DNA from: Pseudemcibacter aquimaris
GTDB lineage: Bacteria; Pseudomonadota; Alphaproteobacteria; Sphingomonadales; Emcibacteraceae
Direction of reading: 5' to 3'
NCBI RefSeq assembly: GCF_028869115.1
Contig: NZ_CP079800.1
Location: forward strand, 620,001-684,000
Length of the DNA stretch: 64,000 bases
Part shown: piece by piece, positions 25,943 through 35,136 of the stretch
Layout of the letters: every line of letters begins with the position of its first letter
Numbering within the stretch: position 1 is the stretch's first letter
The notes under the pieces: generated by a model
The model's database searches: none
Told to the model about the DNA's origin: nothing
Seen by the model: the letters and a program-made list of their open reading frames with translations, nothing else
Translations under genes and position numbers: made by a program

Positions 25943-25970
25943 GACCGTTACTGGATAAGGAGAATTGGCT

Positions 25971-30191
<4,221 letters not shown>

Positions 30192-30246: not shown

Positions 30247-30288
30247 AAAGGCCGGAGCATCTAAAACACTAGATTCTTCGGCCTTTTT
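30247..30288 (+). terminator. Intrinsic terminator of the rpoBC operon
   Basis: AAAGGCCGGAG pairs with CTTCGGCCTTT, with an inner ATCT/AGAT helix, and TTTTTC follows. It closes the rplJL–rpoBC unit before the str operon. Confidence 0.88.
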
Positions 30289-30318: not shown

Positions 30319-30347
30319 TTGACTGTAAGGGACTGTGAATGTAGGTT
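30319..30347 (+). promoter_or_regulatory. Candidate str operon promoter
   Basis: TTGACT (30319–30324), a 17-base spacer and TAGGTT (30342–30347) lie between the rpoC terminator and rpsL. The predicted start near 30354 would put a long stem at the very 5' end of the message. Confidence 0.5.
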
Positions 30348-30355
30348 GCGCTCAC

Positions 30356-30470
30356 TTCTTAGAGGTGCTGGTGGTAGTTCAGGTTCGATCTAAACGCAGC
30401 ACTCTGAAGAAACAGGAAATTAAAACTTAAGTAATTAAGGTGGCCGGGGTGACGTAAGTCGCTCTTTTTT
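30356..30470 (+). promoter_or_regulatory. Structured str operon leader with attenuator
   Basis: The leader of rpsL contains a 14-bp stem with two single-base bulges (30356–30370 with 30397–30411). After it comes a terminator-like hairpin, GGGTGAC-GTAA-GTCGCTC, with TTTTTT (30447–30470). Together they look like an attenuation device before the rpsL-rpsG-fusA-tuf genes. The remaining gap to 30532 shows only a Shine-Dalgarno. The ligand, if any, is unknown. Confidence 0.5.
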
Positions 30471-30532
30471 CTATTTTTGGAAACAGGCTGTCTTTTTTGC
30501 TATGGAAATGAAAAAACGATTAAGGAATCAAA

Positions 30533-30904
30533 ATGCCGACGATCAACCAGTTGGTACGTAAACCGCGCAAGAAGCCAGTTGCCTCTAATAAGGTGCCTGC
30601 ACTTAAAGGCTGCCCGCAAAAGCGTGGTGTTTGTACCCGTGTATATACAACGACACCTAAGAAACCTAACTCAGCTCTTCGTAAAGTGGCCCGTGTGCGC
30701 CTGACGAACGGCTTTGAAGTAACAAGCTACATTCCGGGTGAGGGTCATAACCTTCAGGAGCATAGTGTTGTGCTTATCCGTGGTGGTCGTGTGAAAGACT
30801 TGCCGGGTGTTCGCTATCACGTTCTTCGTGGTGTGTTGGATACACAAGGAATCGCTGATCGTCGTCAAGGTCGATCTAAATATGGTGCTAAACGTCCTAA
30901 GTAA
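30533..30904 (+). CDS. rpsL: 30S ribosomal protein S12
   Basis: Decoding-centre protein and streptomycin target region. It has 123 residues, beginning [14 protein letters not shown]. The wild-type, streptomycin-sensitive loop [19 protein letters not shown] keeps both lysines (43, 44), and the second loop [11 protein letters not shown] is intact. It is the first gene of the str operon, with rpsG 26 bases on. Confidence 0.98.
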
Positions 30905-30927
30905 GGACCACAGCTTTAAGGATTTAA

Positions 30928-31401
<474 letters not shown>

Positions 31402-34818: not shown

Positions 34819-35136
34819 ATGTTGGAATCACAAAACATTCGCATTCGCCTTAAGGCATTTGATCATCGCATCCTTGATCAAGCTGCTGGTGAAATTGCAA
34901 ATACAGCAAAGAGAACAGGCGCTAGCGTTCGCGGCCCTATCCCTATGCCTACGCGAATCGAGAAGTTCACGGTCCTTAAAGGCCCGCACGTGAACAAGAA
35001 ATCTCGTGAACAATTCGAAACACGTACTCACAAGCGTCTTCTTGACATTGTTGAGCCAACACCACAAACAGTAGACGCTCTTATGAAGCTTGATCTTGCT
35101 GCTGGTGTTGAAGTTGAAATCAAACTGCAGGGGTAA
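34819..35136 (+). CDS. rpsJ: 30S ribosomal protein S10
   Basis: Head protein of the 30S subunit; as NusE it also joins transcription antitermination complexes. It has 105 residues: [20 protein letters not shown] at the start, [21 protein letters not shown] near 35, and [20 protein letters not shown] near 72. It is the first gene of the S10 operon. No Shine-Dalgarno lies at normal linear distance; the six T before the ATG follow a GC-rich hairpin, and the nearest AGGAG is upstream of that hairpin. Confidence 0.98.

Follow-up and report, generated by a model that had tools for sequence, protein, structure and literature searches.

A conserved 5'-terminal RNA element as a putative ribosomal protein leader of the joined str-S10 cluster in Alphaproteobacteria

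The window, a stretch of 64,000 nucleotides taken from the 3.37 Mb complete genome of Pseudemcibacter aquimaris (contig NZ_CP079800.1, positions 620,001 to 684,000), carries between rpoC and rpsL a compact structured leader whose 5'-terminal part, here called element A, is conserved in many alphaproteobacterial relatives. Element A is best read as a new ribosomal protein (r-protein) operon leader with a putative ligand. A fuller proposal, to which we give about even weight, is that the region is the leader of the joined str-S10 cluster, in which element A is a putative site for an r-protein encoded in the S10 part and a downstream hairpin is the place of attenuation. Comparative sequence analysis confirms that the leader remarked upon in an initial annotation is real, with the comparison across relatives being decisive.

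The leader and its genomic setting

Open reading frames labelled by similarity place rpoC, a terminator, the leader, rpsL, rpsG, fusA, tuf, rpsJ and further S10-operon genes in that order. The leader follows rpoC (25965–30191) and is bounded upstream by the rpoC intrinsic terminator (GGCCGGAG...CTTCGGCCTTTTT, approximately 30250–30288, on the plus strand, as are all leader features and the rpsL, rpsG and rpsJ genes); by eye, similar hairpins are visible in the leaders of the family. The first gene of the operon is rpsL, encoding S12 (30533–30904; homologues located by tblastn), and is separated from rpsG, encoding S7 (30931–31401), by the 26-base spacer (30905–30930) reported in the initial annotation. 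The gap between tuf and rpsJ, encoding S10 (34819–35136), is 44 bases, leaving no room for a separate S10 leader in the window, and S10-operon genes continue after it. A leader peptide was considered for the frame that starts at the ATG at 30502 and runs into rpsL, and was rejected on the grounds that this frame is, by eye, shortened or absent in relatives.

All of the sequence features claimed for the leader were recovered, with minor adjustments of their borders. The promoter-like pair consists of a -35 hexamer TTGACT (30319–30324) and a -10 hexamer TAGGTT (30342–30347) spaced by 17 bases; the bulged 5' stem, first placed at 30356–30411, occupies 30355–30409; and the hairpin with TTTTTT, first placed at 30447–30470, comprises a stem-loop at 30446–30465 and six T at 30465–30470. 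Taken alone, the window provides modest evidence against chance, as the fold of 30350–30475 has a z of -2.02 with 6 of 200 shuffles equally good, and one terminator-like site was found in the leader where 0.4 were expected. Single-sequence folding is no proof here.

An rpsL gene was found in 24 of 32 genomes of the family, and every one of the 24 upstream regions has both the 5' stem and the promoter, with TTGAC and the 17-base spacing present throughout and a -10 hexamer of TAGTAT or TAATAT in 22, a better hexamer than the TAGGTT of the window (the family pattern was written after the sequences had been inspected). A promoter scan did not list the TTGACT/TAGGTT pair of the window because TAGGTT is a poor -10 hexamer. 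Across a wider set, the union of alignments A6 and A7, in which the family is represented by 16 of its 24 leaders and the window leader is counted twice (L091 and L117), a promoter-like pair lies directly upstream of element A in 80 of 99 leaders versus 5 of 98 control stretches. Among these 80, the hexamer spacing is 17 in 77, and the distance from the end of the -10 hexamer to the GGYNG of element A is 17–24 bases in 79. Given this fixed distance, the predicted start site nearly coincides with the beginning of element A in all leaders with a callable promoter, and in the window we infer a transcription start at about 30354.

Structure and covariation of element A

In element A, a lower stem is followed by an upper helix, which in turn leads to an apical hairpin. 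Its core (30348–30403) matches two covariance models, R1, built on the 5' stem (75.1 bits), and the wider R2 (64.5 bits; whole-genome E 2.2e-10), and at E 0.01 the R2 match is the sole one in its genome. In the minimum-energy fold, the lower stem CUUC-UU-AGAG / CUCU-GAAG extends the element to 30355–30409, and comparable lower stems are seen by eye in relatives. Between the helices lies an internal loop with GGUGGU (consensus GGYNGU; 30370–30375) on the 5' side and AAACGC (ARACGC; 30392–30397) on the 3' side. In alignment A8, the G, G, G and U of the former and the A, A, C and C of the latter are invariant in all 98 rows, while the G of the 3' side is present in 97, such that eight of the 12 loop and closing-pair positions (G-G-Y-N-G-U / A-R-A-C-G-C) are invariant and a ninth nearly so.

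The apical helix and its loop (30375–30392) are variable and covarying, with 95.4% of the cells of this helix paired, changes on both sides in five of its six pairs and a length that may be long or short. The pair beyond the invariant U-A is mostly A-U, with U-A, C-G, G-C and, once, G-U making up the rest. Over the whole of A8 (97 distinct sequences), 94.0% of pair cells are paired and 10 of 12 pairs have both-side changes, a count reached by 3 of 500 shuffles; 180 cells have both-side changes compared to 48.2 in shuffles, none of 500 being as high, and sliding the partner by one column lowers pairing to 31.0 and 54.9%. The input to A8 was 100 hand-chosen loci without near-duplicates, 98 of which matched at E 1e-4, and its fitting to the model biases it towards the model, with the counts from A6 and A7 in agreement (A4 and A6 are chosen subsets of 15 and 48 loci, and A7 includes two loci, L228 and L197, that are discussed below). 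Covariation in relatives, the absence of which was to count against the proposal of the initial annotation, is present in the 5' stem and also in the hairpin (see below), and the proposal withstands this check. Element A has what an r-protein leader is expected to have, a covarying, conserved structure upstream of r-protein genes.

Distribution of element A

In the order, R1 had matches in 45 of 196 genomes, the family contributing 24 of these, and in the class it had matches in 14 of 289 genomes. R2 matched 62 of 385 class genomes, that of the window included, with a single match in each and 323 genomes without a match. R2 contains no information on genes, and rpsL is immediately downstream of the match in 59 of the 62; for a 60th (60 of 62 in total) rpsL is mostly masked with its start readable. 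Of the other two matches, one lies before rpsJ, and the other, L228, has neither rpsL nor rpsJ after it. In a phylum-wide sample, R2 matched five of 299 genomes, all five within the same class, one of the loci (L197) probably being a chance match. Matches that are not before r-protein genes (L228 in the class, L197 in the phylum and L259 in genome G861) were treated as chance, with L228 counted as a miss. In the order of genome G260, 39 of 76 genomes were matched, and all 30 loci read precede rpsL. In a further search, 32 of 39 genomes were matched at E 0.1, and the next gene at 30 loci from this search is rpsL in 23, rpsJ in five, rpsG in one and none in one. Two of these genomes have two matches, the weak second ones being G861:C1:177292-177325 (27.5 bits), whose surroundings contain no r-protein gene of those tested, and G863:C12:7040-7089 (27.9 bits).

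Genes that accompany element A

Where element A precedes rpsL, the genes rpsL-rpsG-fusA-tuf-rpsJ-rplC are collinear in 19 of 20 genomes read, with tuf-rpsJ gaps of 27–144 bases, while the stretch read in the twentieth ends with its contig. A different placement occurs in genus g113 of family f58, taken to be Azospirillum (the leader sequence of genome G869 is that of Azospirillum oryzae L014), in which R2 matched 29 of 45 genomes and 16 had no match, within a search that matched 51 of 82 genomes. Element A precedes rpsJ in all 25 g113 genomes examined, 3' of tuf wherever tuf is in the stretch; the matched genomes outside these 25 are G964, G969, G977 and G981. In the three genomes read closely, the tuf-rpsJ gap is 485–538 bases, and the leaders have by eye a TTGACA, 17 bases and a TAGAGA upstream of element A (the promoter of L223 was not called by the scan) and a strong hairpin with a T-run downstream of it. 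An unfiltered full-model scan from rpoC to rplC in three g113 genomes found element A only at rpsJ and none at rpsL. A further member of the genus, G959, has element A before both rpsL and rpsJ (loci L313 and L302/L314), a two-copy state that is likely an intermediate of the move. Scores for element A in g113 are approximately 31–39 bits. By eye, the Azospirillum rpsL leaders L261, L262 and L264 are without element A and keep hairpin-plus-TTTT sites of their own.

Two genomes place element A on the rpsG side. In G847 (28.3 bits) it precedes rpsG-fusA-tuf-rpsJ and rpsL is absent from the stretch, and in G861 (26.2 bits, slightly below the score of that genome's match away from r-protein genes) it precedes rpsG-fusA, again with no rpsL, in a stretch that ends short of rpsJ. 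At L020 the nearest of the tested genes is rpsG. Element A stands at the head of the S10 operon directly in the 25 g113 genomes and as the head of the fused cluster in the window, in G847 and in the 19 collinear genomes. Considering the rpsL-, rpsG- and rpsJ-side placements together, the S10 part of the cluster is the constant companion of element A. If control is autogenous, these arrangements show that element A can do without S12 and make S7 an unlikely ligand, with L4, S10, L3 and others as the candidates that remain. Most of the case for relocation comes from a single genus, Azospirillum.

The terminator-like hairpin and its enclosing helix

Downstream of element A, the terminator-like hairpin (GGGGUGAC-GUAA-GUCGCUCU, 30446–30465) is followed by the U-tract (30465–30470), part of which may also serve as the 5' arm in another hairpin (approximately 30468–30483) in a predicted three-way junction. 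The first hairpin is enclosed by a helix, P-outer, whose 5' strand (30436–30445) pairs with a 3' strand at 30486–30495. Among 24 family leaders, 95.3% of the hairpin cells are paired with both-side changes in six of eight pairs, and P-outer is 87.8% paired with both-side changes in six of 10 pairs; four measures beat all 500 shuffles and a fifth beats all but three. The structure of this junction (element B) was drawn from sequences that were later used for its counts. L110, a distant family member, has no alignment over the enclosing helix. Among 15 minimum-energy folds of whole leaders, 11 contain the three-way junction, in which the enclosing helix meets the hairpin and a second hairpin that uses U-tract bases, and four lack it; by eye comparable junctions occur in some order-level leaders, such as L158, L159 and L172.

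In 12 of 16 family leaders, a terminator-like site separates element A from the gene (0.7 expected, highest 3). Outside the family, such sites were found in 20 of 79 leaders (21 of 80 with the duplicate of the window; shuffle mean 8.1, highest 16), a count made with leaders of at least 40 bases and free of N and with shuffles from a simple swap procedure. By sequence, the window and its family have a predicted intrinsic terminator between the predicted start and the first gene, one of the features expected of an attenuator. Attenuation in the family of the window is well supported by these comparisons; as a class-wide readout it is unproven. The layout of a leader-controlled attenuation system, as the initial annotation proposed, is borne out by the fixed position of the GGYNG loop behind the -10 hexamer and by the conserved family hairpin with its U-tract.

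A conserved antiterminator pairing that would link element A to the hairpin was looked for by eye in constrained folds of 15 leaders, and none was common to them. The enclosing helix can form only after the polymerase has passed the U-tract and is therefore not an antiterminator, and its conservation is at odds with a plain on/off attenuator. As a guess, it might hide the hairpin and U-tract within read-through mRNA or be a second protein site. In the case of L4 and NusA, a bound protein that stabilizes paused polymerase has been proposed, according to the accessible portion of PMC10931766, and a pause stabilization of this type needs no alternative pairing.

The preferred reading would operate as follows. 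The promoter would place element A at once on the nascent RNA of the str-S10 cluster, where an r-protein encoded downstream, when in excess over rRNA, could bind it. With the protein bound, transcription would stop at the hairpin and U-tract (30446–30470), ahead of rpsL; with the protein scarce, the polymerase would read through, and the enclosing helix would fold the hairpin and U-tract into the three-way junction.

Alternative readings and the probable ligand

The initial annotation suggested that S7 control had moved from the rpsL-rpsG spacer to the leader, in which case S7 (or S12) would bind element A as a relocated form of the E. coli S7 site at the 5' end. In line with this, the window and most of the matches have rpsL and rpsG as their first genes, G959 retains an rpsL copy of element A, and the highest-scoring R2 match on the plus strand of E. 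coli rRNA, though not significant (4.1 bits, E 5.4), falls at 16S 931–970. These nucleotides are presumably near the S7 region. The distribution speaks against it: in all 25 examined g113 genomes element A precedes rpsJ and is downstream of rpsG, a placement that lends the proposed move no support, with none at rpsL in the three scanned by the full model, and S12 is not required where element A precedes rpsG without rpsL, as in G847 and G861. Binding of S7 or S12 is, on balance, distinctly improbable, and an S10-part ligand (L4, S10, L3 and so on) is, we infer from gene order, the more likely choice. A ligand might also be dispensed with altogether, if element A were always folded at the 5' end, either to shield the mRNA or to fix its abundance, and the terminator acted at a fixed ratio. 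The start of the stem almost at the predicted start site is in favour of such a function, but eight of the 12 loop and closing positions are invariant and a ninth nearly so while the helices vary freely, and such constancy amid varying helices goes beyond the needs of a mere stabilizing stem, which makes this an unlikely account.

Another possibility involves the polymerase itself. Element A may be akin to the put RNAs of phage HK022, and by analogy it could act on RNA polymerase to bring about terminator read-through over a long operon with no r-protein sensor; it would then be an ancient alphaproteobacterial put-like RNA, a copy of which would have been placed at rpsJ as the cluster was split in Azospirillum. 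Its 5'-terminal position at a constant distance from the promoter, the promoter-like TTGACA behind which the relocated element still lies (three leaders, by eye), the terminator-like site that follows it in the family of the window and the very long operon that it heads are all consistent with such a role. Against it, the class search gave a single match in each genome and no match was seen before other long operons. Matches remote from r-protein genes are few, those at L228, L197 and L259 being apparently due to chance, and outside the family the majority of leaders are without a recognized early terminator. Both the put-like action and its ancient origin are in our estimate distinctly improbable; were the reading true, one 55-base RNA would set the read-through of the whole r-protein gene cluster. 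A last link to antitermination is offered by CGCUCUUUU at 30460, which we liken to the boxA consensus and which NusB-S10 could recognize. The string GCUCUUUU follows the hairpin in five of eight leaders of the genus, that of the window included, but a boxA-like string is by eye absent from order-level leaders outside the family and in the window is partly an arm of the hairpin, such that this role is very improbable indeed.

Relation to known leaders

A search of the window locus against Rfam 15 gave no family over threshold, with six weak matches, all below cut-offs, in a permissive search, and 18 other loci had no Rfam match up to E 0.05. The rpsL_ricks family (RF01774) was over cut-off in none of 60 order genomes, and also in none of 14 control genomes, so the sensitivity of that search is undemonstrated. 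A sub-threshold rpsL_ricks match (35.4 bits; cut-off 60) occurs elsewhere in the genome of the window (G000:C1:2623717-2623842). With regard to rRNA mimicry, unfiltered R2 on E. coli rrnB reached 4.4 bits at best, and a scan of E. coli rRNA for the loop pattern found no site in 16S and one in 23S, not above shuffles. One Pelagibacteraceae locus (L090) had no R2 match.

Several described systems share parts of the architecture. In the E. coli S10 operon, L4 controls expression through a leader attenuator by premature termination, as stated in the accessible part of PMC10931766, and the two leaders have in common a terminator-like hairpin and a place ahead of S10 genes; unlike it, leaders of the window type usually precede rpsL, and R2 finds no match up to E 3 in the E. 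coli rpsJ upstream region (L269). The same source, in that part, describes r-protein feedback in the E. coli str operon with an S7 site in the rpsL-rpsG spacer. The window shares the operon, whereas its spacer measures only those 26 bases, and element A is 5'-terminal and can leave rpsG behind. Attenuators in rpsL leaders were predicted by Naville and Gautheret 2010 (PMC2965389), who ask, in the text available, whether all of them bind S7 or different partners. The window likewise has a predicted attenuator upstream of rpsL and differs from the RF01774 leaders among them in being below the Rfam threshold. The Candidatus Pelagibacter ubique rpsL motif of Meyer 2009 (PMC2704228), as described in the accessible portion, has a bulged P1 and a three-stem junction with a conserved J2-3. 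Both it and the window leader are structured RNAs that occupy the rpoC-rpsL interval of an alphaproteobacterial fused r-protein cluster. Compared by that description only, element A is unlike the motif in being an unbranched stem, with the junction residing in element B.

A survey of 20 new r-protein leaders (PMC7247131) lists, in its accessible part, a borderline alphaproteobacterial leader before rplB (L2) and the L17 leader, and its table, to the same extent, has no leader before rpsL, rpsG or rpsJ. The accessible text of PMC2965389, PMC2704228 and PMC7247131 contains no description of element A, and no other report of it was found in the openly licensed literature searched. Control of the largest r-protein cluster of Alphaproteobacteria is unassigned in the literature searched, and element A is a compact candidate for it with a short ligand list. 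It bears on the question raised in the part of PMC2965389 available, namely which partner, S7 or another, is bound by rpsL leaders, and Azospirillum, with the two-copy genome G959, constitutes a natural experiment that distinguishes the str hypothesis from the S10 hypothesis.

Other conserved units in rpsL leaders

Several other units were observed in rpsL leaders of the class. A Maricaulis leader (L044:3234-3282) has a possible diverged element A (18.7 bits, E 0.027) with CCGUAA/UUAAACGA. By eye, Rhizobium/Brucella-type rpsL leaders (L047, L049 and L050) have a different starting unit, GATGTGAGG...CCTCA, in the same place, and Rhodobacter-type leaders have yet another. A second conserved unit, a hairpin with by eye a GA-C/G-UC closure that is immediately followed by CUCUG, recurs in the rpsL leaders L011–L090. 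Whether or not element A is there, leaders may carry CCTCTG, which is present in 20 of 34 compared to 2.5 in base shuffles, and the CUCUG unit may pair with AGAGG ribosome-binding sites.
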